DNA of 64,000 nucleotides from contig NZ_CP070619.1 in assembly GCF_017068395.1 (NCBI RefSeq), positions 6,076,001 through 6,140,000 on the forward strand, written 5' to 3'. Shown piece by piece: positions 19,730 to 35,264 of this stretch (position 1 is the stretch's first letter; every line of letters begins with the position of its first letter). This DNA comes from Rhodococcus pseudokoreensis. GTDB lineage: Bacteria; Actinomycetota; Actinomycetes; Mycobacteriales; Mycobacteriaceae. Made by a program: the position numbers and the translations under genes. A model generated the notes under the pieces. It did no database searches, was not told the DNA's origin, and worked only from the letters and a program-made list of their open reading frames with translations.

Positions 19730-19839
19730 GCGGTTCCTCCTGGAACGAATCGGATGCGGCGTCAGGACTTCCTGACACAGATCAGATTGCTCCCCGTCCC
19801 TGCCACAACTCTCCGCTCAGCCTGGCAATCTCCTGCATG

Positions 19840-20595
19840 TCAGCGAGGCTGCTCCGCCAGCTTGGCGGAGATCACCCCGTTGAGTCGCTGCAGACCGCTC
19901 GGCGTGATCCCGTGGATCTGGCCCTCGATGCTGCGCACGACATGGGTGTCGCTGAGGACCTTCTCGCTGGACTGGATCAGAACCGTTCCGGCGCCGGTGA
20001 AGTCGAACTGCCGTTCCTCGCCGGAGTTGATGCCCATCATGTGGGCGCCGGCCGCGAGGAAGTTGCTGATCCATCCCTGGTCGTAATGGTGGCTCGGGGA
20101 CGGGCAGTCGGCCCACCCGACGAGGGCCTCGGGGTCGATCCGCAGCGGCGGTTCGGCGAACATCACCGGACCGTTGGACGACGCCAGGAACTTCCCGGTC
20201 CCGATGAGTGTCAGGAATCCCGGCACGATGGATTGGTTCAGCGACAGACCCGGTTCGAACGCAAGGAGATTCGATGCCCGGATCGTGAGGTTGCCGTCGT
20301 CGAGGTCGTACGAGTTGATGTCGTACCCGCGGTCGCCGATGATCAGTTTCCCGAATCCCTCGGCCACCGCGTAGTCGCCCATGTACAGCGGCGCCGAGAA
20401 CTGGTTGGCGACCATGTGCAGTGCGGCGCCGTGCAATCCGTGGGTCAGCGCCTGGAACTGCATCTGGCCGTAGTACGCGATCATCGCGCCCTTGCGGATG
20501 AACCAGGGCGCGGTGAGGTCGATGCAGAACGCGTAGCTGTTGTCGGGAATGTTGTCGCTGGCGCCGAGCGTCGACGGATTGTGGATGGCGGTCAC
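19840..20595 (-). CDS. AIM24-family protein, copy 3 (divergent)
   Basis: 251 aa, GTG start at 20595 overlapping the preceding stop (GTGA), with GGAGGAG upstream. Belongs to the AIM24/DUF124 beta-barrel family with a long insert relative to its two upstream paralogues. It keeps the pattern of strands around 'APWFIRKGAMIAYYGQMQF', 'GTGKFLASSNGPVMF' and 'FDFTGAGTVLIQSSE'. Cytosolic, no signal. AIM24 proteins often accompany TerD proteins in actinobacterial stress loci. The biochemical role is unknown; lipid- or membrane-associated scaffolding is a guess. Last of three tandem genes. Confidence 0.8.
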   Translation of the reverse strand: MTAIHNPSTLGASDNIPDNSYAFCIDLTAPWFIRKGAMIAYYGQMQFQALTHGLHGAALHMVANQFSAPLYMGDYAVAEGFGKLIIGDRGYDINSYDLDDGNLTIRASNLLAFEPGLSLNQSIVPGFLTLIGTGKFLASSNGPVMFAEPPLRIDPEALVGWADCPSPSHHYDQGWISNFLAAGAHMMGINSGEERQFDFTGAGTVLIQSSEKVLSDTHVVRSIEGQIHGITPSGLQRLNGVISAKLAEQPR

Positions 20596-21287
20596 AGTTT
20601 CTCCTCCGAAGCCTGAACGTAGACGATTCCCTGACCGGTGCACTGCAGTTGCATCGCTTCCCCGACGCCGCGGCCCATGGCCTCGCGCCAGCCGACGGCG
20701 GATTTCAGTTCCACCTGAACGCTCCCGTACGTGCCGACGAACGCGTCGGGGTCGACGAACACCGGATTCGGTCCGCCGACCGGGAGTTCGATGAAGCCGC
20801 CGTGCGCGAGCAGGACCGCCGACCCGTACCCGGACAGCTGCGTCGTGAACATGCCGGTGCCGGACAGGGCTCCTGCCGCCGCACCGCGCAGCGCGCCGAG
20901 CATGCCGCGCCCGCCGCCGCCCTGACTCACCACCGAGACCACCGAACTCTGCAGTCCCGCATTGTGAGCGAGCAGCCGGGACGCCTCGACGCACAGGGCG
21001 CCGCCCTGCGGCATGTCGACGACGTGTACCTCGAGCCCGGCGTGGCCGTAGTGCACCTCGCCCTGCCCCTGCGCCAGCATCGTGCGTTCGTGCTCGCCCT
21101 GCATCATGCGTCCGGCCATCCGGGTGAATCCACCCATTCCGGCCATCGACTGGGAGCCCGGCACCTGGTGCGGCGAGAACTGGACCTGACCGGTGTAGAA
21201 CAGCATTGCGCCGGTGCGGGCCACCACCCCGCCTGCGGCGCCGACGTCGACCTTGACGACCTTCGAGTTCACCTTCGAGAAGACCAT
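20592..21287 (-). CDS. AIM24-family protein, copy 2
   Basis: 231 aa. The ATG at 21287 is 5 bp past the stop of copy 1 and gives a natural start 'MVFSKVNSKVVKVDV'. AIM24 strands: 'GAMLFYTGQVQFSPH', 'GGALCVEASRLLAHN', 'GSAVLLAHGGFIELPV' and the closing 'GEAMQLQCTGQGIVYVQAS'. A Gly-rich linker 'SQGGGGRGMLGALRGAAAG' interrupts the barrel and is probably a flexible loop, as in copy 1. Translationally coupled to copies 1 and 3. Function unknown. Confidence 0.82.
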   Translation of the reverse strand: MVFSKVNSKVVKVDVGAAGGVVARTGAMLFYTGQVQFSPHQVPGSQSMAGMGGFTRMAGRMMQGEHERTMLAQGQGEVHYGHAGLEVHVVDMPQGGALCVEASRLLAHNAGLQSSVVSVVSQGGGGRGMLGALRGAAAGALSGTGMFTTQLSGYGSAVLLAHGGFIELPVGGPNPVFVDPDAFVGTYGSVQVELKSAVGWREAMGRGVGEAMQLQCTGQGIVYVQASEEKL

Positions 21288-21292
21288 GGGGC

Positions 21293-21916
21293 TCACCGCT
21301 CTGCCGGTTGGATGGAGACGACGCCGTGACCGTCCCACTTGAGGGAGAAGGCCTCACCGTTGCCCTGGCCGACGGCGTTGCGCCACGACACGTCGGTGAC
21401 GAACGACTGCGTCACCTGCCCGCGCGCCGAGACGAACGCGTCGGGGTCGACCACGAGCGGGTACTGCGGCGACACCTCGAGGTGGATGAGCGGTCCGCCC
21501 GCCGACAGCAGGGCCACCTGCCCCTGACCGGAGACGGTCGTGGTGAACAGGCCCTGACCGCCGACCCCGCCGCGCAGTCCGGTGAACGTGACGTTGGTGT
21601 TCAGGTTGCCGCTCAGCGCGAGCAGCTGCTGCGATTCCACCTGCAGGGTCTCGTTGGCCAGGTCGACGACCGAGACGTACTGTCCGCCCACCGCGAGGTA
21701 CACGACACCGTGGCCGGAGCATTCCATCAGCGACAGCGCCTCGCCCGTGGCACGCCGCTTCATTCCGGCGAGGACACCGTCGCCGCCGCCGAAGCCCGCC
21801 GACTTGAAACTGACATTGCCCTCGTAGGCGATCATCGAACCCTGAATCGCCCGGATGGTGGTTCCGGCGAGTTGCGCCTCCACCACCTTCTTCGACTTGT
21901 CGAGCAGCCGCCCCAT
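21293..21916 (-). CDS. AIM24-family protein, copy 1
   Basis: 207 aa, the shortest and most canonical copy. Internal pseudo-repeat strands: 'GSMIAYEGNVSFKSAG', 'GEALSLMECSGHGVVYLA', 'GLFTTTVSGQGQVALLS' and a near-copy at the C-terminus 'GEAFSLKWDGHGVVSIQ'. AAGGG lies before the ATG at 21916. First of the three-gene AIM24 operon, downstream of the TerC-like gene but separated from it by a strong hairpin (21936-21974), so it may have its own promoter or be fed by read-through. Confidence 0.83.
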   Translation of the reverse strand: MGRLLDKSKKVVEAQLAGTTIRAIQGSMIAYEGNVSFKSAGFGGGDGVLAGMKRRATGEALSLMECSGHGVVYLAVGGQYVSVVDLANETLQVESQQLLALSGNLNTNVTFTGLRGGVGGQGLFTTTVSGQGQVALLSAGGPLIHLEVSPQYPLVVDPDAFVSARGQVTQSFVTDVSWRNAVGQGNGEAFSLKWDGHGVVSIQPAER

Positions 21917-21935
21917 GGTGCCCTTTCCAGTGTCG

Positions 21936-21974
21936 AGCGGCAGTGCCCGTGACCGAGTCACGTGCACTGCCGCT
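21936..21974 (-). terminator. Hairpin terminator after the TerC-like gene
   Basis: AGCGGCAGTGC (21936-21946) pairs perfectly with GCACTGCCGCT (21964-21974). Inside, CGTGAC (21948-21953) pairs with GTCACG (21957-21962) around a 3-base loop, with one mismatch between the stems. It lies in the 79-bp gap after the DUF475 stop. It also sits close to the AIM24 start, so attenuation is possible. Confidence 0.65.
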
Positions 21975-21995
21975 GGATGTGAGTACAGGCAGAAC

Positions 21996-23138
21996 CTAGC
22001 CGACGGACACCGACTTCTGCTCGTCCACGTCGTCTGCCGCTTCGCCGGCCACCGCGGCGGCCTTGCGGTTGCGGACGATGCTGGAGATGAACGCGGCGCC
22101 GATGAGGGCGACACCGACGAGGCCGGTGACGTTCTCGTTGACGTGGTAGCCGATGGACACGAGCAGGATCACGGCCAGTGCGCCGATGGCCCAGTGGGCG
22201 CCGTGCTCGAGGTACACGTAGTCCGAGAGGGTGCCCTTGCGGACCAGGAACACGGTGATGGAACGGACGAACATCGCGCCGACGAAGCCGAGGCCGAGGG
22301 CGATGATGATCGGGTCGGACGTGATCGCGAAGGCGCCGATGACACCGTCGAAGGAGAACGACGCGTCGAGGACCTCGAGGTACAGGAACAGGAAGAACCC
22401 GGCCTTGCCGGTGGCCTTGGCCAGCTGGCTCGGCCCGCCGGTGGATCCTTCGACGGCGACGCCGTCCTCGTCTTCCTCGGGGGTGTTGAACAGTTCACCG
22501 AGACCGTTGACGGCGATGTAGGTGACCATGCCGAGGACGCCGGCGATCATCACCGTGGACACCGTGTCCTCGGGGGCGATGTAGGCGGCGGTGATCAGCA
22601 GCAGGACGCCGGCGAGGATGACGGCCAGCTGGTCGAGCTTGCCTGCGCGGGCGAGGGGCTTCTCCAGCCAGGACAGCCAGGTGATCTCGCGCTCTTCGAG
22701 GATGAAGCCGAGGAACAGCATCAGCAGGAACATGCCGCCGAACGCCGCGATCTGCGGGTGTGCGTCGGTGAGCAGGGTTTCGTAGCTGGCGCTGCCGTCG
22801 GGGAAGTATGCGGCGCCGTCGGCGGGCGGGTTGAGGGCCAGGTCGAGTGCGGCGACGGGGCCGAGGCCGGAGGCCAGCCAGACGATGACGAGGGGGAAGA
22901 CCAGGCGCATGCCGAACACCGCGATGACGATGCCGACGGTGAGGAAGATCTTCTGCCAGAAGTCGCTCATGCGGCGCAGGACGGTGGCGTTGATGACGGC
23001 GTTGTCGAAGGACAGCGAGATCTCGAGGATCGAGAGGATCAGCACGAGGAGGACGGCCTGGGGGCCTCCGTAGATCGCCGCGATGATGAGGGATATCACC
23101 GTCACGGCGAAGGAGAGACCGAATATTCGCAGAACCAC
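21996..23138 (-). CDS. TerC/DUF475-family integral membrane protein
   Basis: 380 aa from a GTG at 23138, preceded by AGAAAGG at 9-bp spacing and giving the family-typical start 'VVLRIFGLSFAV'; an ATG at 23165 would add 9 residues. About nine membrane helices. Two acidic-helix motifs typical of TerC-like proteins are seen: 'LEISLSFDNAVINA' (about residues 38-51) and 'LEVLDASFSFDGVIGAFAI' in the second half, which would place carboxylates in the membrane for metal ions. TerC-family proteins act with TerD in tellurite and metal stress and in Mn2+ homeostasis. Between TerD (upstream) and the AIM24 genes, with hairpins on both sides. Confidence 0.87.
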   Translation of the reverse strand: MVLRIFGLSFAVTVISLIIAAIYGGPQAVLLVLILSILEISLSFDNAVINATVLRRMSDFWQKIFLTVGIVIAVFGMRLVFPLVIVWLASGLGPVAALDLALNPPADGAAYFPDGSASYETLLTDAHPQIAAFGGMFLLMLFLGFILEEREITWLSWLEKPLARAGKLDQLAVILAGVLLLITAAYIAPEDTVSTVMIAGVLGMVTYIAVNGLGELFNTPEEDEDGVAVEGSTGGPSQLAKATGKAGFFLFLYLEVLDASFSFDGVIGAFAITSDPIIIALGLGFVGAMFVRSITVFLVRKGTLSDYVYLEHGAHWAIGALAVILLVSIGYHVNENVTGLVGVALIGAAFISSIVRNRKAAAVAGEAADDVDEQKSVSVG

Positions 23139-23193
23139 GAAGCGTGGCCTTTCTCTAGTGGGCATGCAGGGTGGTTACTGCAGGGGACGAACA

Positions 23194-23236
23194 CCGGGGG
23201 AGGGTGTCACGGCAATGCCGTCACACCCTCCCCCGG
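23194..23236 (-). terminator. Strong hairpin between terD and the TerC-like gene
   Basis: A 20-bp stem (23194-23213 with 23217-23236) with a single mismatch closes a 3-base AAT loop. It begins CCGGGGGAGGGTGT on one side and ends with the complement on the other. It sits 20 bp past the terD stop and 56 bp before the TerC-like start, so it probably limits read-through and sets a high TerD to TerC ratio. Confidence 0.75.
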
Positions 23237-23255
23237 CTGGGGAACGAAGCGACCG

Positions 23256-23831
23256 TCAGACGTTGACGCCGTAGTCGCGGGCGATACCGGCCAGCCCCGA
23301 CGCGTAGCCCTGGCCGATGGCACGGAACTTCCACTCCGCGCCGTGGCGGTACAGCTCGCCGAAAACCATAGCGGTTTCGGTCGACGCGTCCTCGGACAGG
23401 TCGTAGCGGGCGAGCTCGTTGCCGTTGGCCTGGTCGACGACGCGGATGTACGCGTTGCGGACCTGACCGAACGACTGCGAACGGGTCTCGGCGTCGTAGA
23501 TCGAGACGGGGAACAGGATGCTCTCGATGTTCGCGGGGACCGCCGCCAGGTTGACGTTGATCACCTCGTCGTCGCCCTCGCCCTCACCGGTGGTGTTGTC
23601 GCCGACGTGCTCAATCGAGCCGTCGGGGGAGCGCAGGTTGTTGAAGAACACGAAGTGCTGGTCCGACACGACCTTCTTGTCGGCACCCTCACCGATGGCG
23701 CTGGCGTCGAGGTCGAAGTCGGTGCCGGTGGTCGAGCGGGCATCCCATCCGAGTCCGACAGCCACCGCGGTCAGGTTCGGCGCCTCCTTCGTGAGAGAAA
23801 CATTGCCGCCCTTGGTCAAGCTGACGCCCAT
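23256..23831 (-). CDS. terD: TerD-family calcium-binding stress protein
   Basis: 191 aa, canonical TerD length. Starts '[16 protein letters not shown]'. The two acidic metal loops are intact: 'DFDLDASAI' (about residues 38-46) and '[13 protein letters not shown]' (about 77-89). The end '[14 protein letters not shown]' is typical. TerD proteins bind Ca2+ and underlie resistance to tellurite and other stresses. GAAAGGA precedes the ATG. Head of the minus-strand ter unit, divergent across 183 bp from the long plus-strand ter operon, so both are likely co-regulated. Confidence 0.94.
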
Positions 23832-24014
23832 TCAGGGGTCCTTTCGAGAGGAGGTGGGTGGACCCTCGACGGCTGTCGAAGTTCCGAGTTCGTCGTGCGA
23901 CACCACGATAATGAATTTGTCCGACTTGTCCCATCCGTCGATCTGTCCACAGGTTTGTGCACAGGCAATTCCGGTCCACTCGGAGTTGTCGCCCCGACCA
24001 GTACGATTCAGGGC

Positions 24015-25211
24015 GTGACGAGCGGATGGGCGGGACGCTTCCGAGGAAGAGCCCGGGGCGACGACTCGGCTCGTCTTGCCCACGACACGATGGTCGCAGC
24101 GTTTCTCGATATGGACAACCGGCAGAGCATCGCCGCCGCGGCCGTGGACGCCTCCGTCGAGCTGGCCCCGGAACGCGGAATCCGCCGGGCGTGGGAACCG
24201 GTCCGCGACGGGTGCTACCAGGCCGCGACGGCGTACCTGGCGGCGGAAGACCAGTTCGAGAATGTGCAGACGCCCGCGGCCACCGCCGCGTACGAGCAGG
24301 TGACGCGGCAGCTGGTGGCGGCGACGCAGACCCTCGACGAGTTCTATCGCACACATCGCGGCCACCTCGAGGAGTCGACCGCGATGCTGGCGGCCGTTCC
24401 GCAGCTCGCGCAACAGGCGCTGCAGGTCGCTGCCGCGGCGCAGCGCCGGGTGCAGACCGAGGGCGCCGCCTACGCCGGCTACCCGTCGGTGCGCGACCGG
24501 GGCGCCGCACTCGACGCCGCGGTCGTCGCGCTGCAGGGCGCCCGCGGTGCCAACCCGGTCCGCGCCGCGGCGGCGCGGGTGCGGGAGGAGTCGGCGGCGC
24601 TCGAGAAGGCGCTGGCCGCGGCTCCGTCCAAGGAGCGGGATGCCGCGCACGCGGTGTCGTCGGTGACGACGAGGATCGCCGCGGTGCAGACCCGGGCCGA
24701 ACGGCTCGCGCCCGCCTACTCCGCGCTGCTCCGCGAATTCAACGCGGCCAGTTCGGCGGATCTCGTCCACAACGACCGCAAGAGCCGAACGCACATCGAG
24801 CAGGCGCAGACCGATCTGCAGCAGGCACAGAAGGCCCTGACCGCGGGAAACCCCGAGGGGGCGCTGGATCTGACGGCCGCGGCGCGGACCCATCTCGTCG
24901 ACGCCGAGGCGAACGTCGACGGCGTCACCGATCGTCTGCTGTTGCTGCGGGACGTGCGGGAGAACCCGCGGTCCAAGGAGAACGAGATCAGATTTCGCCT
25001 CCGCGACGCCCAGATGTTGGCTGTCAATCGTGGGCTCGTGCGGGAATGGGGGTCGGTCCTGGACGCTCAGCTCGAGCGAATTGACCGAATTGCAGGGACA
25101 CTGACCGGGCGGCATCCCGACTACTGGGCGTACGTCACCCAGCTCGATGCCGTGTCGGTGTTCATTGCCGAGGTGGTTCAGAAGATGAGAGGACACACAG
25201 CGCAGCGATGA
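24015..25211 (+). CDS. Ala-rich helical (coiled-coil) protein heading the ter operon
   Basis: 398 aa from a GTG at 24015 ('MTSGWAGRFRGRARGDDSAR'); an internal ATG at 24090 would give 373 aa. Soluble, almost all helix, Ala/Glu/Gln/Arg-rich with long heptad-like stretches (about 100-230 and 250-330, e.g. 'HIEQAQTDLQQAQKAL'). No recognisable domain; the shape recalls TelA-like or other coiled-coil partners of TerD proteins. It is 12 bp upstream of the CitE-like gene and divergent from terD, so it is likely the first gene of the operon 24015-33851. Possibly a scaffold; no enzymatic motif seen. Confidence 0.75.
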   Translation: MTSGWAGRFRGRARGDDSARLAHDTMVAAFLDMDNRQSIAAAAVDASVELAPERGIRRAWEPVRDGCYQAATAYLAAEDQFENVQTPAATAAYEQVTRQLVAATQTLDEFYRTHRGHLEESTAMLAAVPQLAQQALQVAAAAQRRVQTEGAAYAGYPSVRDRGAALDAAVVALQGARGANPVRAAAARVREESAALEKALAAAPSKERDAAHAVSSVTTRIAAVQTRAERLAPAYSALLREFNAASSADLVHNDRKSRTHIEQAQTDLQQAQKALTAGNPEGALDLTAAARTHLVDAEANVDGVTDRLLLLRDVRENPRSKENEIRFRLRDAQMLAVNRGLVREWGSVLDAQLERIDRIAGTLTGRHPDYWAYVTQLDAVSVFIAEVVQKMRGHTAQR

Positions 25212-25223
25212 CACGGGGGGACG

Positions 25224-26450
25224 ATGAGCATTAGCGAAGAGGTCGGGACGACGGCGGTGCCGTCCGGTGTGACGACGGCGGTGCGGCATGTGCGGCACTT
25301 TCACCACCTCGAGCACGAGACGCACGACCGGCTGTTTCTGCACGCTCCGCAGGCGCTCGGGCCGGACGAGGATCGAACGGTGCTGGCGGTTGCGCTGGGC
25401 GCGACGCTGTACGTGCCGGCGAACAGGTCCGACCTGGCGGAGACGATTCTGCGCCGGTCGGCCGACGGGGTCTGCTCGATGGTCCTGGACCTCGAGGACG
25501 CCGTGGCGGACGACCAGGTGGAATCGGCGTTGCTCAACGCCGTCGACGCGCTGGATCTGCTGGCGACCCGTGGTGGCGCGCGGATGCAGCTGTTCGTGCG
25601 GGTGCGATCCGCCGAGGACCTTCGGCGGATCGCCGGCCTGCTGACGACCGGCGTCGAGGTGTTGTCCGGGTTCGTGTTTCCCAAGTTCGGAAGTGCGACG
25701 GGCGGCGCGTTCCTGGACGAGCTGGCCGCGGCGTCGGAGCGGCTCGGCAGGCAGTTGTATGCGATGCCGGTGCTCGAATCGCCCGCTCTGGTGCACCGCG
25801 AGTCCCGCGACGACGAACTCGCGAAGATCGGCGCACTGCTCGTCGAACACCGCGAGCGGATTCTCGCCGTGCGCATCGGCGCCACCGACATGTGTGCCAC
25901 GTTCGGCATCCGCCGCGACCGCGACCTGACGATCTACGACGTGCGGGTGGTCGCGGACGCGATCGCGGCCATCGTGAACTTCCTGGGCCGCGCGGACGAG
26001 ACCGGGCACGTCATCACCGGGCCGGTGTGGGAGTACTTCGCCGATCACGAGCGGATGTTCCGGCCGACCCTGCGCGCCACGCCGTTCGAGGAACACGACG
26101 AGGTGCGGTTCCGTCAGCAGCTGGTCAGCCGCGACCTGGACGGTCTGCTCCGGGAGATCGCCCTCGACCGCGCCAACGGCATCCAGGGCAAGACGGTCAT
26201 CCACCCGACGCACGTCGCGGCCGTGCACGCCCTGTCCGCGGTGACGCACGAGGAGTACCACGATGCGCTCGACATTCTCGGCGCCGAGGGCGTCGGCGGC
26301 GTCCAGGCGTCGGGATACCGCAACAAGATGAACGAAATGCGCCCGCACCGCAGCTGGGCCGAGAAGACACTCGTCCGGGCGAAGGTGTTCGGCGTGACCA
26401 ACGAAGGAATCACGTTCGTGGATCTGCTGACCGCACTGGCCGTCCGATGA
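25224..26450 (+). CDS. HpcH/HpaI aldolase/CitE-like lyase of the ter biosynthetic module
   Basis: 408 aa, longer than simple CitE (about 290). An N-terminal extension (1-55, His-rich 'RHVRHFHHLEHETHD') precedes a TIM barrel with 'ATLYVPANRSDL', the metal/substrate motif 'MVLDLEDAVADDQ' (86-98) and 'AVRIGATDMCATFGIRR'. The C-terminal 'GIQGKTVIHPTHVAAV' is the usual CitE closing motif. Predicted to make or break a C-C bond next to a CoA ester or oxoacid. In ter loci such lyases occur with PRTases and a HAD phosphatase, as here. GGGGGGA precedes the start; the stop overlaps the PRTase start (ATGA). Substrate unknown. Confidence 0.85.
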   Translation: MSISEEVGTTAVPSGVTTAVRHVRHFHHLEHETHDRLFLHAPQALGPDEDRTVLAVALGATLYVPANRSDLAETILRRSADGVCSMVLDLEDAVADDQVESALLNAVDALDLLATRGGARMQLFVRVRSAEDLRRIAGLLTTGVEVLSGFVFPKFGSATGGAFLDELAAASERLGRQLYAMPVLESPALVHRESRDDELAKIGALLVEHRERILAVRIGATDMCATFGIRRDRDLTIYDVRVVADAIAAIVNFLGRADETGHVITGPVWEYFADHERMFRPTLRATPFEEHDEVRFRQQLVSRDLDGLLREIALDRANGIQGKTVIHPTHVAAVHALSAVTHEEYHDALDILGAEGVGGVQASGYRNKMNEMRPHRSWAEKTLVRAKVFGVTNEGITFVDLLTALAVR

Positions 26451-27730
26451 GTTCACCCACCGCCGTCCGCGCGGTGCCCTGGGCCACGGAGCATCTGGGG
26501 TTGACGCTCGCCCATGTGGATTCGAGCTCGGGGCTGACGATCCCCGAACTCGTCGAGCCGGGTCTGCGGCGCAACCCGCGACGCGCCCACCTGCTCGTCT
26601 CGACGGTCCTCGGCAAGCACGTGCCCACCGACCCCGGCGCGGTGATCGGCGCAGGCGACCGCCTCGGTGACCTGGTCGCCGATGTCCTCGGACCGGATGC
26701 GGACCCCGTCGTGCTCGGGTTCGCGGAGACCGCAACAGGTCTGGGCCATTGCGTCGCCGCGCGGCTGCGCGCCCGGTGCTACCTGCACTCCACGCGCCGG
26801 GACGTCCCCGAGATCGGGACGTCCGCCGGTTTCGAGGAGGGGCACTCGCACGCCACCAGTCATCAGCTGCAGCCGACGTCCGTCGAGTTGTTCGCCGGTG
26901 ATCGGCCCCTCGTCCTCGTGGACGACGAGATCTCCACCGGCGCCACCGCGGTCGACGCAATCCGCGCGCTGCACCGGCAGAACCCGCGCAGCCGGTACGT
27001 CGTGGCGTCGCTCGTCGACATGCGCGACCAGGGCCACCGGGACGCCGCCGACGCCGCGGCCACCGAACTCGGTGTGCAGATCGACAGCGTGAGTCTGGCA
27101 TTGGGGCGCACCGAGCTTCCCGACGCGCTGACCGACGCCGTCGGCGCGCTTCCGGATCCCGTGCTCAACCCCGTCGGCGCGCGGACCGGGACCGTGGAGC
27201 GGGCCGACCTGGCCTGGCCCGCCGCAGTTCCCGAGGGCGGGCGTCACGGCTTCCTGCGGGAAGACACCGAGGAATTCGATGCGGCCGTCGCGTCGGCGGC
27301 CGCGGCGCTCCGTGATCGGCTCGACCCGCAGCGTCCGGTGATCGTCGTCGGGCACGAAGAGTTGATGTACCTTCCGTTGCGGATCGCGGACACGCTCGCC
27401 GCATCCGGTTTCCGGGTCCGATTCCAGACGACGTCCCGGTCGCCCGCCTACGTGCTCGACCAGCCGGGGTACCCGCTGCGCCGCGGATTCCGCTTCACCG
27501 CCCCCGAGGCCGGGGAAGAGCAGCCGCGGTTCGTCTACAACGCGCAGTGGCCGGACGAGGACGCCGTCGTGGTCGCGGTAATCGACGCCGCCGCCGACAC
27601 CGACCGGCTCACCGCACGCGGAGGGCTCCTCGACGTCCTCACTGCGGCCGGAACGGATGTGCTGCTGGCCGTCGTGTCCGGCGCCGACCCGCGGTCGCTG
27701 CGGGCGGCACGCGCGGGAGCGGCGTCGTGA
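26447..27730 (+). CDS. Phosphoribosyltransferase with C-terminal TRSP domain
   Basis: 427 aa. N-terminal PRTase fold with the PRPP-binding signature 'LVLVDDEISTGATAVDAIR' (155-173; acidic pair Asp159/Asp160) and an upstream 'GFAETATGLGHCVAARL' helix. The C-terminal third carries the TRSP-type region 'PVIVVGHEELMYLPLRIADTL' and 'FQTTSRSPAYV', whose T-S-R-S-P core gives the domain its name. Such PRTases are found in ter loci and are predicted to attach a ribose phosphate to an unknown base. Starts inside the CitE-like stop and ends inside the next GTG start (GTGA): tight translational coupling. Confidence 0.87.
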   Translation: MSSPTAVRAVPWATEHLGLTLAHVDSSSGLTIPELVEPGLRRNPRRAHLLVSTVLGKHVPTDPGAVIGAGDRLGDLVADVLGPDADPVVLGFAETATGLGHCVAARLRARCYLHSTRRDVPEIGTSAGFEEGHSHATSHQLQPTSVELFAGDRPLVLVDDEISTGATAVDAIRALHRQNPRSRYVVASLVDMRDQGHRDAADAAATELGVQIDSVSLALGRTELPDALTDAVGALPDPVLNPVGARTGTVERADLAWPAAVPEGGRHGFLREDTEEFDAAVASAAAALRDRLDPQRPVIVVGHEELMYLPLRIADTLAASGFRVRFQTTSRSPAYVLDQPGYPLRRGFRFTAPEAGEEQPRFVYNAQWPDEDAVVVAVIDAAADTDRLTARGGLLDVLTAAGTDVLLAVVSGADPRSLRAARAGAAS

Positions 27731-28836
27731 CGGCGCCGCTGACCGGCCCGGCGTTCGGTTCGTACGCCGCCGACGAGGTGGGCTGGCTGCTCACAGACCT
27801 GTCGCACGTCGACCTCGAGGCCGACGTCGCGGAGCGGGAGCGCCGCATCCAGTCGGGTGCAGCCCACTACGCCGAGACGCTGCCCATCGAGTACCAGCCC
27901 GACGCGGAGTACCGCGAACTGTTCGAGAAGGTGCTGCAGGACAGCTCCATTCGACTCGCGCGCGCGGTGGGCACGGTCACCGACCTCGTGCTGGCCGAGC
28001 GGGGCAGCGACGTCACGCTCGTGTCGCTGGCGCGCGCCGGAACTCCGGTGGGCGTGCTCATGCGCCGCTGGGCGCGGGACGTCCACGGCCTGGCGCTGCC
28101 GCACTACGCGGTCTCGATCGTCCGGGACCGCGGGATCGACGCCGTCGCGCTCGACTACCTCGCGCGTCACCACGACCCGAAGAACGTGGTCTTCGTCGAC
28201 GGCTGGACGGGCAAGGGCGCCATCGCCCGCGAGTTGTCGCAGGCACTCGCGGAGTACCGCGAGGCCGGGGGCGCCGAGTTCGACGACGACCTCGCCGTCC
28301 TCGCGGATCCAGGGCACTGCGTCCGCACGTTCGGCACCCGCGACGACTTCCTGATCGCGTCGGCGTGCCTGAACTCCACCGTGTCGGGTCTGGTGTCGCG
28401 GACCGTCCTCAACGACACGCTGATCGGCCCCGGCGACTTCCACGGCGCCAAGTTCTACGCGCACCTCGCGGGCGAGGACGTGTCCAATCACCTCCTCGAC
28501 TCCGTCAGCACGTCCTTCGCGGACGTGCGTGAGCACGTCCCCGGCGACGTCGAGGAACTGCTGCGGTCGGACCGGACACCCACCTGGGACGGCTGGACGT
28601 CCGTCGAGGCTGTCCGGGCGCAGTACGGAATCTCGACGGTGAACTTCGTGAAGCCCGGCGTCGGCGAAACCACCCGGGTGCTGCTGCGCCGGGTGCCGTG
28701 GCGAGTGCTCGTCCGCGACCTCTACGCCCCCGAGCACGCGCACATCCGGCTACTCGCCGCCGCGCGCTCTGTTCCCGTCGAAGAGGTTCCCGGCCTGGCG
28801 TATTCGTGCATGGGCCTGATCAAGGATGTGACATGA
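27727..28836 (+). CDS. StiP/PRTase_1-family protein, second phosphoribosyltransferase-like enzyme
   Basis: 369 aa, GTG start overlapping the previous stop. It shows a divergent PRTase core: 'VTLVSLARAGTPVGVLMRRW' (96-115) resembles the PPi loop and 'NVVFVDGWTGKGAIAREL' (153-170) the PRPP loop, with Asp-Gly-Trp replacing the usual acidic pair. Databases often call this family 'cysteine protease StiP', but the motifs point to a PRTase-like fold. Two distinct PRTases side by side suggest synthesis of a nucleotide-like molecule using PRPP twice, or a synthase/salvage pair. Overlaps the HAD gene by 4 bp. Confidence 0.82.
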   Translation: MTAPLTGPAFGSYAADEVGWLLTDLSHVDLEADVAERERRIQSGAAHYAETLPIEYQPDAEYRELFEKVLQDSSIRLARAVGTVTDLVLAERGSDVTLVSLARAGTPVGVLMRRWARDVHGLALPHYAVSIVRDRGIDAVALDYLARHHDPKNVVFVDGWTGKGAIARELSQALAEYREAGGAEFDDDLAVLADPGHCVRTFGTRDDFLIASACLNSTVSGLVSRTVLNDTLIGPGDFHGAKFYAHLAGEDVSNHLLDSVSTSFADVREHVPGDVEELLRSDRTPTWDGWTSVEAVRAQYGISTVNFVKPGVGETTRVLLRRVPWRVLVRDLYAPEHAHIRLLAAARSVPVEEVPGLAYSCMGLIKDVT

Positions 28837-29711
28837 CCGCGTTGATCGCGACGGACCTCGACCGGACCATGATCTACTCCCGCGCGGCGATGGAACTCGC
28901 CGTCTCCGAGAGCGACGTGGCGTCCGCGGCCGGCGACGACGATCTTCTGTGCGTCGAGGTGTACGACGGCAAACCCCTGTCCTACGTCACGTCGGCCGCC
29001 GAGGCCATGCTGCGCACGCTCACCGCGTCCGCCGTGGTCGTGCCCACCACCACTCGCACCGTCGCGCAGTTCGAGCGCATCGACCTGCCGGGGGCGCCGT
29101 GGCGGTACGCGATCACGACCAACGGCGGGAACATCCTCGTCGACGGTGTCCCCGATGCGGGCTGGCGGTCGGGCGTCGACGTCGCGATCGCCGACGGCGG
29201 TGCGTCGCTGGTGGAGGTCGGGGCCGAGTTGAGCCGCCGGATCGACGACAGCTGGGTCCGGTCGTCCCGGGTGGCCGACGAGTTGTTCTCCTACCTGGTC
29301 GTGGACCTCGACGCGATGCCCGAGGGCTTCGTCGAGGAGTGGAACGACTGGTGCGTGGATCGGGGCTGGGGTGCGTCCCGCCAGGGCCGCAAGATCTACA
29401 CGATGCCCGACGCGGTGTGCAAGAGCCGTGCCGTGGCGGAGGTCCGTTCCCGGCTCGTCGAGGACGGCGTGCTCGCGGCGGAAGCGCCCGTGCTCGCGGC
29501 GGGGGACGGGGCGCTCGACGCCAACATGCTCAGTGCCGCCGATGCCGCCATCCGCCCCCGGCACGGCGAACTCGAAACGCTCGACTGGCAGCATCCGACC
29601 CTGTCCGTGACCGGAAGCAGCGGGATCGCCGCCGGTGAGGAGATCCTGCGCTGGTTCGCGGACCGTGTCGAGCGGGGTGCGGGGACGACGGCCGCGGGCG
29701 CTCTTTTGTAG
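28833..29711 (+). CDS. HAD-superfamily phosphatase of the ter module
   Basis: 292 aa. HAD motif I is 'IATDLDRTMIYSR' (nucleophile Asp8, acid/base Asp10). Motif II is probably the Thr of 'VVVPTTTRTV', motif III the Lys in 'KSRAVAEV', and motif IV 'LAAGDGALDANML'. The cap between motifs II and III is large (type C2-like), as in sugar phosphate and nucleotide-precursor phosphatases. Cytosolic. Expected to remove a phosphate from a product of the two PRTases. Starts within the stop of the StiP-like gene (ATGA). 62 bp separate it from the double-TerD gene. Confidence 0.87.
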   Translation: MTALIATDLDRTMIYSRAAMELAVSESDVASAAGDDDLLCVEVYDGKPLSYVTSAAEAMLRTLTASAVVVPTTTRTVAQFERIDLPGAPWRYAITTNGGNILVDGVPDAGWRSGVDVAIADGGASLVEVGAELSRRIDDSWVRSSRVADELFSYLVVDLDAMPEGFVEEWNDWCVDRGWGASRQGRKIYTMPDAVCKSRAVAEVRSRLVEDGVLAAEAPVLAAGDGALDANMLSAADAAIRPRHGELETLDWQHPTLSVTGSSGIAAGEEILRWFADRVERGAGTTAAGALL

Positions 29712-29773
29712 GTTGTAGGCAAACAGGCCAAACGGGACAAACCCGACGCTCCCACAGTGAAGGAATCACCGCA

Positions 29774-31012
29774 GTGTCCACTCCGCTTGCCAAGGGTCAG
29801 AACGGCCCACTGAGCGTCGACGACGTCATCGTCTCCCTCGAGCTGACCGCCGCCGCCGACCTGTCCGCGCTGCTCGTCACGGACTCGGGGAAGGTCCGCT
29901 CGGACGCCGACTTCGTCTTCTTCAACCAGCCGTCCGGTCCCGGCGTGCAACTCGTGCCCGGGGCCCCCGGCCAGGCGGCGTCGCTGAAGGTGTCCCTCGG
30001 CGCGGTACCCGCCGACATCGCCCAGGTGCGCGCGGTCATCACACTCGACGACGCCACCAGCAACTTCGGCCGCTCCGCCCCGCCGACGGCCCGGGTCACC
30101 GACGGCGCCGGAAACGCGCTGTACGAGTACCGGATCGACGGACTGAACTCCGAGTCGATCGTCATCGCGCTCGAGCTGTACCGCCGCCAGGGCGCCTGGA
30201 AGGTGCGGGCCGTCGGGCAGGGCTACGCCGGCGGTTTCGCCGCACTCGTCACCGATCACGGTGTGTCCGTCGACGACGCTCCCGCACCCGCGGCCGCCCC
30301 GGTCCAGCAGCCGCCGGCACCGCAGGCCGCCCCGGCTCCGGCCTATCCGCCGCCGGCCGCACCGGTGCCGGCCCCGGCGCCTCCGGCTCCCGCTGCCCCC
30401 GCGGCTCCGGCCGAGGTCAGTCTCACCAAGTCGCGGCCGGTCAGCCTGAGCAAGGGCCAGAAGGTCACGCTCCGCAAGGACGGCGGCGTCGCGCTGACGT
30501 ACATCCAGATGGGACTCGGCTGGGATCCGATCGAGAAGCGCGGCATGTTCGGAAACCGTTCCGCCAACGTCGACCTCGACGCGTCGGCGGTCCTGTTCGC
30601 GGACAACAACATGGTCGATGTCGCCTACTACGGCCAGCTGACGTCGAAGGACGGGTCGATCCGGCACCAGGGCGACAACCTCACCGGTGAGGGCGCGGGC
30701 GACGACGAGGTGATCCTCGTGGATCTCACCCGCATTCCGCCGCATGTCTCGACCATCGTGTTCATCGTGACGTCGTACCGCGGGCACACGTTCGAACAGG
30801 TGAAGAACGCGTTCTGCCGCCTGGTGGACACCACGTCGAACGCCGAACTCGCCCGGTTCACGCTGCAGGGCGGGATGCCGTTCACCGGAATGGTGATGGC
30901 CAAGGTGTACCGGGTGGGCGGCGAATGGAAGTTGCAGGCCATCGGTGAGGGCATCCAGGCCAAGCACGCCGGTGAGGCCGCGCCTCAACTCGCCCGGTTC
31001 CTCGGCGTCTAG
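29774..31012 (+). CDS. Double TerD-domain protein with Pro/Ala linker
   Basis: 412 aa, GTG start with GAAGGA at 9-bp spacing. The first TerD domain (1-165) keeps 'SDADFVFFNQPSGPG' and 'WKVRAVGQGYAGG' but lacks most acidic calcium ligands. A low-complexity linker (about 167-212) is nearly all Pro and Ala. The second TerD domain (about 213-412) is canonical, with 'ANVDLDASAVLF' and 'GDNLTGEGAGDDE'. One metal-binding and one apparently degenerate domain suggest a sensor plus adaptor. The linker's CCG/GCC repeats make it slippage-prone. Ends 9 bp before the next gene. Confidence 0.9.
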   Translation: MSTPLAKGQNGPLSVDDVIVSLELTAAADLSALLVTDSGKVRSDADFVFFNQPSGPGVQLVPGAPGQAASLKVSLGAVPADIAQVRAVITLDDATSNFGRSAPPTARVTDGAGNALYEYRIDGLNSESIVIALELYRRQGAWKVRAVGQGYAGGFAALVTDHGVSVDDAPAPAAAPVQQPPAPQAAPAPAYPPPAAPVPAPAPPAPAAPAAPAEVSLTKSRPVSLSKGQKVTLRKDGGVALTYIQMGLGWDPIEKRGMFGNRSANVDLDASAVLFADNNMVDVAYYGQLTSKDGSIRHQGDNLTGEGAGDDEVILVDLTRIPPHVSTIVFIVTSYRGHTFEQVKNAFCRLVDTTSNAELARFTLQGGMPFTGMVMAKVYRVGGEWKLQAIGEGIQAKHAGEAAPQLARFLGV

Positions 31013-31021
31013 GGGCGGTTG

Positions 31022-32596
31022 GTGACGGTCCACCTCGTTCCGGGGCAGAACGCTCCGCTGCCGTCGCGCGTACTGCGTTTCCGCGCAGTCGACGCGACAC
31101 CGGTCGACGTCGCGGCGTTGATCGTCGACGGCGATCTGCGCGCGCTGTCCTCGGACCATTTCGTGTTCTACAACCAGCGGCGGGCCGCCGGGGTGGAACT
31201 CGACGCGGACGGAACGGTCCGGCTGCACCTGGACGAGGTGGACGCCGCCGCGGCGGGGGTGCTCTGCGTGGTCAGTGTCGATCCGGCATCCCCGAGCGGT
31301 CCGGCGACGCTGGCCCGGTCGGGTCTGTCGGCCACGCTCGCCGATGAAAGCGGCAGTACCGTGGTCGTTTTCGACGTCCCGCTGGTCGGTTCCGAGGCGG
31401 CCGCGATCTGCCTGGAGATCTACCGCCGCGGCGCCGACTGGAAGGTCCGCGCCGTCGGGCAGGGATACGACGGCGGCCTCGCCGAACTTCTCGCCAAGCA
31501 CGGCGTCGACGTGGACGAACCCGCGCACCCTGTCGCCGAAGAGGTTCCGGCGACGCCCGGTCCGGCGGACATCCCGCTCGACCCGGCCCACTCGTTCGAG
31601 AGAGCGTGGATGATCTTCGAGGACGCCGCCCGGTCGGCGGCCTCGTTCCGGTCCTCCCGCGACTACGCGCAGACGCGGCTGGACGACGAACTGTCCGCGT
31701 CGGTGGCCGACCCGGCAACCCGCAACAGTCCGGCGGTCGCGCAGTCGCGGGCCCGGGCGCAGGAGCGGTCCGACGCCCTCGTCGCCGAGGCGCAACGCAA
31801 ATTCGACGGCGAGACTTCGCAACTGGCCGAGGAACTCCGCGTCATCGACCCGCTGCTGCCGCGGTCGCTGGCGACGTTCGAATCCGCCGCGTGGACGAGC
31901 CGGGTCACCCACACCGCCGTCACGGACGGCCTGAGGCTCGGCGAGTTGTCCGCACCCGACCTCGGCGAACTGCGGGTCCCGTTCTGCGTCCACTACCCGC
32001 TGGGGCGTCCCCTCTGGATCGTCGGCGAACCGGCCGAGGCCGCACCGGTGGTCGCCGCGCTGGCGGCGCGCATGCTGGTGGCGTCGCCCGCTTCATTACA
32101 ACGGCTGGAGGTCGTCGACCTCAGCGGCTCGCTACGCGAGTTCACCGAACCCCTCGGTGCGCTCCTGGCCTCGCCCGTCGTGTCCGCGGCCTCCGACATC
32201 ACCGCCCGGCTCACCGCGCTGTCCGAGAGCGTCGACCTCGCAGAAATGGCGGCCCGCAACGGGATCCGGGACGCCCTGCCGGAACCGCGGCTGGTGATCC
32301 TCGGCGACTTCCCGCACGGGTACGGCACCGAGGACGCCGCACACATCGTGCACCTCGCCGACCACGGTCCCGCCGTCGGGACGTCGCTGATCATCGTCGG
32401 CGACAGCGCCGGCGCCGCTTCGGATCCGGGAGTCGCGGTGCTCGAACGCATCGCGCAGCAGGTTCCGACGTCGGGGGTCCTCACCGTCTCCGACCCGTGG
32501 ACGCGCAACGACTGGATCCTGACCCCCGACCGGCTCCCGGACCACCCCCTGCACCGGGCGTCGGTGCTGGATTCGCTGACCGGGCACGAAAGGTGA
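31022..32596 (+). CDS. TerD-domain protein fused to coiled coil and degenerate FtsK/HerA-like region
   Basis: 524 aa from the GTG at 31022, close after GGGGCGG. Residues 1-165 form a TerD domain with reduced metal loops ('DHFVFYNQRRAAG', 'WKVRAVGQGYDGGL'). Residues 192-290 are helical and probably coiled coil. From about 316 the sequence resembles the FtsK/HerA ATPase core: 'PLWIVGEPAEAAPVVAALAA' (330-349) stands where G-x-x-x-x-G-K-S would bind ATP, then a Walker-B-like 'LEVVDLSGSL' and 'RLVILGDFPHGYG'. The P-loop lysine is absent, so this is likely a non-hydrolysing relic or protein-binding module. The FtsK link is my reading and is uncertain. Confidence 0.8.
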   Translation: MTVHLVPGQNAPLPSRVLRFRAVDATPVDVAALIVDGDLRALSSDHFVFYNQRRAAGVELDADGTVRLHLDEVDAAAAGVLCVVSVDPASPSGPATLARSGLSATLADESGSTVVVFDVPLVGSEAAAICLEIYRRGADWKVRAVGQGYDGGLAELLAKHGVDVDEPAHPVAEEVPATPGPADIPLDPAHSFERAWMIFEDAARSAASFRSSRDYAQTRLDDELSASVADPATRNSPAVAQSRARAQERSDALVAEAQRKFDGETSQLAEELRVIDPLLPRSLATFESAAWTSRVTHTAVTDGLRLGELSAPDLGELRVPFCVHYPLGRPLWIVGEPAEAAPVVAALAARMLVASPASLQRLEVVDLSGSLREFTEPLGALLASPVVSAASDITARLTALSESVDLAEMAARNGIRDALPEPRLVILGDFPHGYGTEDAAHIVHLADHGPAVGTSLIIVGDSAGAASDPGVAVLERIAQQVPTSGVLTVSDPWTRNDWILTPDRLPDHPLHRASVLDSLTGHER

Positions 32597-32603
32597 GTAC
32601 ACC

Positions 32604-33851
32604 GTGACAAGTCTTGCCCGCGGCGAGAACATCGAGATCGTCTGCTCGCCGACCAGCGTCGCGGTCGCGGGCGCCCGCCGAGGCGAGGTCGACCTGATGG
32701 TCTTCCAACTCGGCGCGAACGGACGGGTGCGGTCCGACGAGGACTTCGTCTTCTTCAACAACCCCAGTTCGCCCGAGGGGGCCGTGCGGTTGGCAGCGGC
32801 AGACGGCGTCGACATCGATCTCGCGGCGGTGCCCGCCGACGTCGACAAGCTCAGCATCGCCGTCGCTCTCGACGACTCGGTGCCCGGCAGTCTCGCCGAT
32901 CGCGTCGGACTGGGCGTGGTGATCGAGAACTCCCGGGCGTCGCTGGGGGCGGACGCGTCCGGGCTGAGCACCGAGCGTGCCGCCGTCCTCGTCGAGGTGT
33001 ATCGCCGTGGTGCGGGGTGGAAGGTGCGCAACGTCTCGGCCGGGTGGGACGGCGGGCTGGCTGTCCTCGTCACCGAGCACGGCGTGGACGTGACGGATTC
33101 CGCGTCCGCCGACGATGTTGCCGTGCGGACCGTGCCGGACGAGCTGGGTCTGACGTTCGAGAAGCGGCAGAAGCTCGACCTGCGCAAGCGTGAAGTCGCG
33201 AAGGTGTTGCTGCACAAGGGTGCAGGCGAGACGCGCGCCCGGGTGGTTCTGGTGATCGACAAGACGGGCAGCATGCGGCGCCAGTATTCGACGCGGGCGA
33301 TCAACCGGGTGGTCGAGCGGATGGTGCCGGTGGCCACGCAGATCGACGACGACGGTCGCCTCGAACCGTATCTCTACGCCAAGAACTTCGCTCGCCTGCC
33401 CGACATCGCCGTACACGAGGTCGACAGTTGGTGCGACACGTTCCTGCATCTCGGCGGTGTCCACGGCGGAATCGACTACAAGGCGATCGGCGGCTACAAC
33501 GACGAACTGCCGATCATGACCGACATCATCTCCAGCCTGCCGCCGCGGGGCGGGACCCCCACCCTCGTGCTGTTCTTCACCGACGGCGGATTCCAGCAGC
33601 GCGGCAAGATCAGCGAACTCATGCGTCGCGCCTCGAGTCTGCCCGCGTTCTGGCAGTTCGTCGGAATCGGCCGCGCCGACTACGGACTGCTCGAGAAACT
33701 CGACACCCTCGACGGGCGAACCCTCGACAACGCCGGGTTTTTCGCCGTCGACGACATCGACAAGATCGACGACGCCGAACTGTACCGCCGCCTGCTCAGC
33801 GAGTTCCCCGACTGGCTGCGCGCCGCGAAGTCGGCGGGTGTGGTCGGTTGA
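32604..33851 (+). CDS. TerF-like protein: TerD domain plus von Willebrand A domain
   Basis: 415 aa, GTG start 7 bp after the previous stop. The TerD domain (1-165) keeps 'SDEDFVFFNNPSSPEGA' and 'WKVRNVSAGWDGGL' with weak metal loops. The vWA domain (about 210-410) has MIDAS motif 'VVLVIDKTGSM' (Asp219-x-Thr-x-Ser form), a later Thr in 'PPRGGTPTLVLFFTDGG' and the Asp of 'FTDGG'. It matches TerF and TerY-type adaptors that bridge TerD complexes through metal-dependent contacts. Last gene of the 9.8-kb operon; convergent with the ABC1 kinase 6 bp away. Confidence 0.9.
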   Translation: MTSLARGENIEIVCSPTSVAVAGARRGEVDLMVFQLGANGRVRSDEDFVFFNNPSSPEGAVRLAAADGVDIDLAAVPADVDKLSIAVALDDSVPGSLADRVGLGVVIENSRASLGADASGLSTERAAVLVEVYRRGAGWKVRNVSAGWDGGLAVLVTEHGVDVTDSASADDVAVRTVPDELGLTFEKRQKLDLRKREVAKVLLHKGAGETRARVVLVIDKTGSMRRQYSTRAINRVVERMVPVATQIDDDGRLEPYLYAKNFARLPDIAVHEVDSWCDTFLHLGGVHGGIDYKAIGGYNDELPIMTDIISSLPPRGGTPTLVLFFTDGGFQQRGKISELMRRASSLPAFWQFVGIGRADYGLLEKLDTLDGRTLDNAGFFAVDDIDKIDDAELYRRLLSEFPDWLRAAKSAGVVG

Positions 33852-33857
33852 CGTGAG

Positions 33858-35264
33858 TCACTCGTCGGGTAGTTCCACCCCGAGTTCGCGGGCCTTCGCG
33901 GCGACGGCGTCGGGGAAGACGTTGCGGAACAGGAACAGGTCCTGTCCGATCACCCAGCCGGGCGCGAGTTCGGTGGCGTAGCGCTCGAAGTAGCCGAGTT
34001 GCTTCCCGAACAGGACGAGTTCCTCCGGGCTGGCGACGCCCCAGTTCTTGCCGATGCCGATGAGGGCCATGATGAGTTCGCTGAGCCGCAGCTCACCGAG
34101 GTCCCGGCCAAGTAGGGGCGCGAGGGCGGCCGCCACCTGAAGGCCGATCTCGTCGTCGGTGGCGTCGTTGTCCTGCGCGTAGCCGAGGTTGCGGATTCCG
34201 CGCGCCATGCGGGCGAAGTCGCCGTCGATCAGCGTCGCGTAGAACATGTCGCGCAGGATCTGACGCCACGATTCGGGGAGCTCACCGACGATGCCGAAGT
34301 CGAGCATCGCGATGCGCCCGTCGTCGAGGACCCACAGGTTTCCGGCGTGCACGTCGCCGTGGAACGGGCCGTGCAGGATGACGGACTCGATCCACACCTT
34401 GACGCCGCGGCGGATCAGCATGCGGGTGTCCATGTGGACGAGGTCGGGGAACCGGTCGAGCGGCAGCCCGTACATGCGTTCCATGCAGATGACGTGCGGA
34501 CCGCAGTAGTCCCAGTACACCTCCGGGGTGGTGACACCCTTGTTGTCGCCGAACGCGCCGATGTTCGTCCTGAACCGGGTCTGCCGGTCGGCCTCCACGG
34601 CGCTGTTGAGTTCGGTCATCGTGGCCGCGTGGAGATCGCGGATGATGGCGGTGGCGTTGGCGATGCGGAAGAACTCGAAGAGTTTCTCGAGGATCCGCGC
34701 ACCCCAGTACGCGGTGCGCAGGTCCACCACCATGCGGCGGAAGATGTCGGGGCGCTGCACCTTGATGACGGCTTCCCGGCCGTCGGGGAGCACGCAGCCG
34801 TGGACCTGTGCGACGGAAGCGGCGGCGAAGGGGACGTCGTCGAACGACGCGAACAGCGCGTCGACGGGATGTCCCAGATCTGCCTCGATCACCCGGCGGG
34901 CCTCCTGCGCGGGTACCGGCGGCACGTCGTCGAGGCATCGCAGGCAGGCGTTGGCCAGCGGGGCGGGGAACACGCCGGATGACGACGCCATCAGCTGCCC
35001 GACCTTCACGAACGTCGGGCCGAGCACCTCGAAACCGTTGACCAGGCCCTCCGACGCCGCGTCCGCGAGAGTGCGGCCGCGACGCCGGACGGGCCAGGTG
35101 ACGAGCGCGAGCAGTGTGTAAGCGACGACGACCACGCCGATGACCAGCGCCCGCCACAACTCCGCCGCGCGGAACCGGTCGAGTCTCGCGGAATGCACGG
35201 TCAGGGCTGCAGGTGGCGGCCCCGAAGCGTATGGGCCGACCGGACGTGGCGTTGGCTCGTGCAC
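33858..35264 (-). CDS. ABC1/UbiB (AarF)-family atypical kinase
   Basis: 468 aa, GTG start with AGGA close upstream. One N-terminal membrane helix (about 40-57, 'ALVIGVVVVAYTLLALVTW') is followed by the UbiB kinase core: 'PTFVKVGQLMASSSG' (KxGQ motif), the Ala-rich loop 'FAAASVAQVHG', Lys in 'AVIKVQRP', catalytic 'HGDVHAGNLWVLDDG' and metal 'LDFG'. Such proteins support lipid/quinone metabolism in other bacteria; in rhodococci, which use menaquinone, the target is unknown. Stands alone between the ter operon and an LLM oxidoreductase gene. Confidence 0.9.
   Translation of the reverse strand: MHEPTPRPVGPYASGPPPAALTVHSARLDRFRAAELWRALVIGVVVVAYTLLALVTWPVRRRGRTLADAASEGLVNGFEVLGPTFVKVGQLMASSSGVFPAPLANACLRCLDDVPPVPAQEARRVIEADLGHPVDALFASFDDVPFAAASVAQVHGCVLPDGREAVIKVQRPDIFRRMVVDLRTAYWGARILEKLFEFFRIANATAIIRDLHAATMTELNSAVEADRQTRFRTNIGAFGDNKGVTTPEVYWDYCGPHVICMERMYGLPLDRFPDLVHMDTRMLIRRGVKVWIESVILHGPFHGDVHAGNLWVLDDGRIAMLDFGIVGELPESWRQILRDMFYATLIDGDFARMARGIRNLGYAQDNDATDDEIGLQVAAALAPLLGRDLGELRLSELIMALIGIGKNWGVASPEELVLFGKQLGYFERYATELAPGWVIGQDLFLFRNVFPDAVAAKARELGVELPDE

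Follow-up and report, generated by a model that had tools for sequence, protein, structure and literature searches.

A chromosomal Ter locus of Rhodococcus pseudokoreensis with a linked module of two predicted phosphoribosyltransferases, a phosphatase and a lyase

Organisation of the locus

The stretch of DNA analysed here (the window) comprises 64,000 nucleotides of Rhodococcus pseudokoreensis (contig NZ_CP070619.1, positions 6,076,001 to 6,140,000), and at its positions 19,840 to 33,851 it contains a Ter-linked enzyme module, a locus of known kind that is ordinary for its lineage. Genes for a phosphoribosyltransferase (PRTase) of the PRTase_2/TRSP type and for StiP are found beside terD genes, with a HAD phosphatase gene in the same run and a CitE-like lyase gene. 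The host, with a genome of 9.87 Mb in 6 contigs, is near R. opacus, R. wratislaviensis and R. jostii, and its StiP is 93-95% identical to the StiP proteins of these species.

The locus consists of two divergent arms (Table 1). The minus arm runs leftward from 23831 with a terD gene, a DUF475/TerC gene and three AIM24 genes, and the plus arm runs from 24090 with genes for a coiled-coil protein, the CitE-type lyase, the TRSP-PRTase, StiP and HAD, followed by three terD genes. The enzyme genes overlap by ATGA at 26447 (lyase/TRSP), GTGA at 27727 (TRSP/StiP) and ATGA at 28833 (StiP/HAD), and 62 bases separate HAD from terD gene 2. Since the next gene, for an ABC1-type kinase, lies on the opposite strand, the plus-strand run ends at 33851. 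A scan of 19500-34200 for the sigma-70 consensus gave no promoter match. A PADLOC scan of nine proteins gave weak matches only, of the coiled-coil protein to JetC (E 1.2e-4) and of the TRSP protein to a PRTase model (E 4.8e-3), and a PDB profile search with the coiled-coil protein returned coiled-coil chains such as EzrA.

An earlier sequence-only reading had described TerD in four genes with five domains, a TerC/DUF475 membrane protein, three AIM24 genes and the set of CitE-like lyase, TRSP PRTase, StiP-like PRTase and HAD phosphatase with ATGA/GTGA overlaps. Pfam recovers these families, including PF02342 for TerD and DUF475 with a weaker TerC match, HAD is recognised by its motifs and by NCBIfam, and the overlaps are seen in the bases themselves. 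The vWA adaptor of that reading is present as a vWA-TerF domain in Pfam, although it is encoded within the fourth terD gene and not by a gene of its own. The observation is thus confirmed, and the interpretation of the locus as a nucleotide-like metabolite pathway joined to Ter proteins is partly supported.

Table 1. Features of the Ter locus, in window positions
Feature	Position	Strand	Description
AIM24 gene c	19840..20595	-	251 aa, GTG start; GTGA overlap with stop of gene b; PF01987 E 1.2e-12
AIM24 gene b	20592..21287	-	231 aa; PF01987 E 1.9e-27
AIM24 gene a	21293..21916	-	207 aa; PF01987 E 5.7e-32
DUF475/TerC-family membrane protein	21996..23165	-	389 aa; PF04332 E 3.7e-131, weaker PF03741 (TerC) E 1.2e-14
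terD gene 1	23256..23831	-	191 aa; PF02342 E 5.4e-85; acidic motif present
Divergent intergenic region	23832..24089	.	Presumed promoters of both arms
Coiled-coil protein	24090..25211	+	373 aa; no significant Pfam family; probable first gene of enzyme operon
CitE-like C-C bond lyase	25224..26450	+	408 aa; PF15617 (C-C_Bond_Lyase) E 1.1e-120
TRSP-type PRTase, predicted APRT-like fold	26447..27730	+	427 aa; PF15609 (PRTase_2) E 2.3e-63, PF12500 (TRSP) E 1e-34
StiP, predicted PRTase-like, with C-terminal PELOTA/L7Ae-like domain	27727..28836	+	369 aa; PF11202 E 7.3e-107, PF15608 (PELOTA_1) E 4.3e-34
HAD-IIB-type phosphatase	28833..29711	+	292 aa; invariant HAD motifs, weak NCBIfam HAD-IIB matches
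terD gene 2	29774..31012	+	PF02342 twice; two TerD domains, Pro/Ala linker; acidic motif in second only
terD gene 3	31019..32596	+	PF02342 E 1.8e-17, without acidic motif; C-terminal domain of ~340 aa
terD gene 4	32604..33851	+	PF02342 E 7e-23 without acidic motif; fused to TerF-type vWA, PF10138 E 1.1e-76
ABC1-type kinase (neighbour)	33858-35264	-	Next gene past terD gene 4

Conservation and gene order

Relatives of the locus are here the 80 closest named loci, the best 80 of at least 545 confirmed matches, and the fractions 78/80 and 49/80 given below therefore describe close relatives. They come from Rhodococcus, Nocardia, Williamsia, Gordonia, Tsukamurella, mycobacteria, Streptomyces, Nakamurella and others. 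Genes for lyase, TRSP, StiP and HAD are present in the window order in 78/80, both misses being cuts at contig ends, and given this the composition of the locus is beyond chance. All 80 loci contain a TerD match, 76 contain DUF475, 76 the coiled-coil gene and 40 AIM24. Every locus that spans 20 kb or more has DUF475 (63/63), and in 59 of the 76 loci with this gene it is oriented divergently to the lyase gene. Many relatives have AIM24 or other genes placed after HAD, before the terD genes that follow, so that the 3' terD genes form a separable block.

Of 24 other genomes sampled from the same genus, 20 contain StiP, as do 100/101 Streptomyces-genus genomes, and across Actinomycetota it occurs in 20/396 genomes (host included; 19 over cut-off), from 7 of 237 genera. 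A StiP relative is also found in 2567 of 72,556 plasmid records, mostly enterobacterial, of which the neighbourhoods of 14 were read. In the viral scan, StiP alone as query gave no match and the StiP alignment gave 3 contigs.

Two orders recur among these loci. The order CitE-TRSP-StiP-HAD is that of Actinomycetota, Lactococcus and Alkaliphilus, the last with two terD genes and an AIM24 gene behind it, and in the stretch read from Brevibacillus CitE-TRSP-StiP is present, but no HAD and no ter genes were detected. The order ATP-grasp-TRSP-HAD-StiP-CitE is found in Leclercia, a Pseudomonas plasmid, Polaromonas and Pantoea, the Pseudomonas plasmid having one more gene after ATP-grasp and before TRSP. 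Halomonas and Azospirillum have TRSP-HAD-StiP-CitE with no ATP-grasp detected in the loci, Pseudomonas Leaf58 has ATP-grasp with HAD as a fragment only, the Bradyrhizobium loci, surrounded by transposons, have no ATP-grasp, and phage ME3 has TRSP-HAD-StiP with neither CitE nor ATP-grasp. The steadiest part of the module is the TRSP-StiP pair, the exception being a rearranged locus of Rahnella with two StiP copies and TRSP only as a fragment. The CitE-like lyase is common in Ter-linked modules but absent from phage ME3.

Two individual clusters may be added. An IMG/VR contig (L132, 5931-11309) carries CitE-TRSP-StiP-HAD and then ATP-grasp, with no match to the window TerD proteins in the 17 kb read, and the reading that the CitE-first order never carries ATP-grasp is thus wrong. 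In the Pseudomonas plasmid cluster (L117), the gene at 8915-10054, annotated as a trypsin-like peptidase, also matches the window TerD proteins, which suggests a putative TerD-peptidase protein between ATP-grasp and TRSP.

Ter loci with a module predicted to make a nucleoside-like metabolite were described in 2012 by Anantharaman, Iyer and Aravind, according to papers that cite this work, as a prediction only. As in the module so described, TerD, a TerC-family protein, AIM24, vWA-TerF, two PRTases, HAD and a CitE-like lyase are combined here in one locus. Unlike it, the window has no ATP-grasp gene, DUF475 replaces the classical TerC, a coiled-coil gene is the probable first gene, and TRSP-StiP-HAD stand behind the lyase. 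The IncHI2-type plasmid ter locus of Leclercia (L090) shares the divergent ter and enzyme strands and the orthologous PRTases and lyase, but it has its own ATP-grasp, TerA, TerB, TerW and TerY-type genes and the ATP-grasp-first order. Plasmid pFI430 of Lactococcus cremoris MG1363 (L120) shares CitE-TRSP-StiP-HAD, TerD and DUF475, also with no ATP-grasp detected in the stretch, whereas its cluster lies on a single strand, includes YceG and toxic-anion-resistance genes and has no annotated AIM24. Of the traits of the terZABCDEF tellurite-resistance operon, in which TerB and classical TerC accompany TerD paralogues, the window has the TerD paralogues and DUF475 with its weaker TerC match, and a plasmid TerB query matches only four of the relatives' loci.

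The absence of an ATP-grasp gene from the locus, already noted in the sequence-only reading, is the usual state, as two plasmid ATP-grasp queries gave no match at E 1e-3 in the loci of the 80 relatives. The window thus falls outside the ATP-grasp-bearing, plasmid-type subtype, which has an ATPgrasp_Ter-type gene in the cluster. That reading had also suggested looking for co-occurrence of the ter enzyme genes with ATP-grasp elsewhere in the genome, and for Actinomycetota the outcome is negative. No Ter-type ATP-grasp was found in the host genome, where the best match of a plasmid ATP-grasp query had E 0.37 and the single PF15632 match, in a 1476-aa open frame, was below cut-off. Among the 19 other StiP genomes, PF15632 matched over cut-off in 9, and the strong matches (>117 bits) in 7 of those 9 were all from the Streptomyces genus and none near StiP. 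Within the 101 Streptomyces-genus genomes, ATP-grasp is found in 33, including the single StiP-less genome, against 100 for StiP, and 68 of the 100 StiP-bearing genomes have no ATP-grasp match at E 1e-30. The nearest StiP/ATP-grasp pair on one contig lies ~405 kb apart (G480), as judged by listed coordinates in same-contig genomes only. In another genome (G210), matches to StiP and PF15632 (1134-aa frame) are ~6 kb apart, both below cut-off, and are not counted as a linked pair. Supply of ATP-grasp from elsewhere in the genome is therefore rejected, since none is found in the host and the gene is decoupled from StiP across Streptomyces. Its absence from the 80 relatives' loci together with this decoupling makes ATP-grasp an accessory, and since several phyla have loci without it, it is not required for the wider Ter-linked module. 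Among plasmid records, 2501 contain ATP-grasp and 2567 StiP, each counted separately.

As a separate observation, the patchy ATPgrasp_Ter-type gene of Streptomyces (L112, 9129-10316; relatives in L113-L116) has phosphoesterase and glycosyl-hydrolase genes as neighbours and is distant from ter genes. The conserved neighbours scanned in five ATP-grasp neighbourhoods were genes for glycosyl hydrolase family 4, a calcineurin-type phosphoesterase or regulators, or were unassigned.

Motifs and predicted folds of the proteins

The TRSP and StiP PRTases form one fused protein in 49/80 relatives. No fusion was seen for CitE-TRSP (0/79), StiP-HAD (0/79) or coiled coil-CitE (0/61), and six apparent HAD-TerD2x fusions were an artefact, as the TerD2x match sits upstream of HAD in all six. 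The TRSP protein retains an invariant DDExxTGxT, a phosphoribosyl pyrophosphate (PRPP) motif of the DDExSTGxT type, and with its modelled APRT fold it is a predicted type I PRTase.

The StiP model likewise has a PRTase fold with PyrR and HGPRT matches, the best Z being to the CriT region with PyrR nearly tied (VIA-align). Its PRPP loop reads FVDGWTGKG in the aligned sequences, with a single acid in place of a vicinal acidic pair, and because this pair is missing we call StiP PRTase-like and not a classical type I PRTase. The PRPP loop of CriT is likewise without the pair. CriT, known from Bcs3 and Cj1432, is described as a PRPP O-ribosyltransferase paired with the HAD-type phosphatase CrpP (PMC10299916, PMC12096443). 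StiP and the window HAD resemble this pair in that a PRTase-fold enzyme, in StiP a putative user of PRPP, is followed by a HAD-type phosphatase. In contrast, CriT and CrpP are described as acting on capsule polymers within one multi-domain protein, and the likeness of StiP is one of model fold. The invariant residues of StiP lie in PRTase-type loops and in the C-terminal PELOTA_1 domain, where K309, P310, E314, R317 and L320-R322 are invariant.

HAD gave no Pfam match at E 0.1; its family-invariant residues are D8, D10, T12, T73, R75, K197, G224 and D229. The window HAD alone matches PDB 6cj0/6d3v ('trehalose phosphatase') at E 3.7e-5; the E of 2e-91 obtained with the HAD profile arises by construction, since the profile includes the HAD of the Pseudomonas plasmid ter cluster (L117), itself a near match of 6cj0/6d3v (E 5e-161). 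The structures (6cj0, 6d3v, 6d3w) belong to an extrachromosomal 'trehalose phosphatase' of P. aeruginosa, described as a trehalose-6-phosphate phosphatase and not as a Ter enzyme (PMC6838324). The only two cysteines of the L117 HAD, 85 and 231, are the same two discussed for the extrachromosomal enzyme in that report, whereas the window HAD is 25% identical to the L117 HAD over 236 positions.

The lyase matches citrate lyase and malyl-CoA lyase structures and keeps E91, D92, R126, E185, D222 and H327, which we take to be the metal and active-site positions of the CitE family. By alignment, the acidic motif of TerD, which binds Ca2+ in solved TerD proteins, is kept in two of the five TerD domains (that of terD gene 1 and the second one of gene 2) and missing from the other three (first domain of gene 2, gene 3 and gene 4). 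Solved relatives of terD gene 1 are 3ibz and 2kxt/2kxv. The C-terminal domain of terD gene 3 (31574-32593, plus strand), which has relatives in 37/80 loci, gave no Pfam match and nothing below E 0.8 in a PDB profile search, and a likeness by eye to FtsK-type ATPases was dropped, as the aligned segments have no Walker A motif. Three more TerD domains are encoded elsewhere in the same genome, at contig positions 6841408, 7104784 and 8433423.

A possible pathway and its alternatives

In one published view, the PRTases and HAD of Ter loci are proposed to make a signal that is possibly sensed by TerB/TerD (PMC7824862), and AIM24 is given as a frequent TerD neighbour with reference to the 2012 work (PMC5822837). 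In Klebsiella, two opposed ter operons are described, with terZ-F sufficient for tellurite resistance (PMC8115787), and ter is reported to have a role in envelope stress (PMC9933665).

The locus is probably best regarded as a chromosomal actinobacterial Ter system whose enzyme module produces a metabolite that is ribosylated and dephosphorylated and has a link to TerD/TerC, a reading that we hold at about even confidence and prefer to each of the others. It builds on the gene content, the conserved order, the PRTase fusion in relatives, the intact catalytic motifs and the modelled PRTase folds. In the simplest scenario, the APRT-type TRSP protein and StiP would act as a pair on PRPP and place ribose 5-phosphate onto an acceptor, which the CitE-type lyase may make or trim via C-C bond chemistry, and the pair may possibly add a second ribose to the first product. 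Removal of the terminal phosphate(s) would then fall to the HAD-IIB phosphatase, in the way that CrpP follows the PRPP ribosyltransferase CriT. The released ribosylated compound could be a signal or ligand for the TerD-family proteins, which together with DUF475/TerC, AIM24 and the vWA adaptor may run an envelope or metal stress response at the membrane. Conjectural in this scheme are the substrate and the product, the sequence of the steps, the connection to TerD and the stress signal.

Ter loci are common on plasmids, and the product of their enzyme module has been a matter of prediction since 2012, as papers citing that work present it. The question is now narrower, with ATP-grasp as an accessory, an often fused PRTase pair as the steadiest part, a HAD with a solved homologue and a StiP with a possible biochemical analogue of a measured reaction. 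The fusion, the CriT-like modelled fold and the solved HAD homologue make the question of the product more testable, with purified proteins of non-pathogenic actinobacteria.

A bolder and rather improbable extension is that PRPP O-ribosyltransferases like CriT include a soluble class, with StiP as its founding member. Together with the APRT-type PRTase, StiP would build a disaccharide-like nucleoside (ribosyl on ribosyl) or ribosylate an RNA held by PELOTA, and HAD would strip the terminal phosphate to yield the Ter signal.

Alternatively, the module may be directed at RNA altogether, with StiP holding an RNA by its PELOTA/L7Ae-like domain and ribosylating it or swapping its base with PRPP, HAD trimming the phosphate, and the response going through modified RNA and not a free metabolite. 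We consider this unlikely, although the invariant residues of PELOTA_1 fit it, L7Ae chains are the top, albeit weak, profile matches of the domain (best E 0.013), and a published model docks a PELOTA_1 domain to kink-turn RNA (PMC5571608). An Rfam scan of 17000-37000, with E values up to 1 admitted, gave no structured RNA, and TRSP and the lyase would have no obvious role. L7Ae-like folds also bind proteins.

Somewhat more doubtful is that HAD acts on trehalose 6-phosphate or a similar disaccharide phosphate and that the locus tunes osmolyte or envelope sugars. The near match and shared cysteines of the Pseudomonas plasmid HAD point in this direction, but the low identity of the window HAD to that protein does not, and the two PRTases and the lyase would be left unexplained. 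Moreover, of the genes annotated in the loci read none was recognised as a trehalose-6-phosphate synthase, where no search was aimed at one. Just as doubtful is plain nucleobase salvage, in which both PRTases would recycle ordinary bases beside incidental ter neighbours. The APRT-like and PyrR/HGPRT-like folds would suit such a role, but the PRTases are often fused in relatives and are fixed in order beside terD, plasmids and a phage carry them along with ter genes, and they contain additional TRSP and PELOTA domains with invariant residues.

Finally, we reject as highly improbable that StiP is a cysteine protease and that the locus controls proteins and makes no metabolite, a reading suggested by the name in Pfam and in plasmid annotations, as 16 diverse StiP sequences have no invariant cysteine and no column with cysteine in more than 8/16, and as the modelled fold and the invariant loop residues are of PRTase type. 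Among close relatives only, cysteine is frequent in three columns (34 to 36 of 39). The sequences and the modelled fold thus argue that 'cysteine protease StiP', a name in wide use in databases, is misleading.

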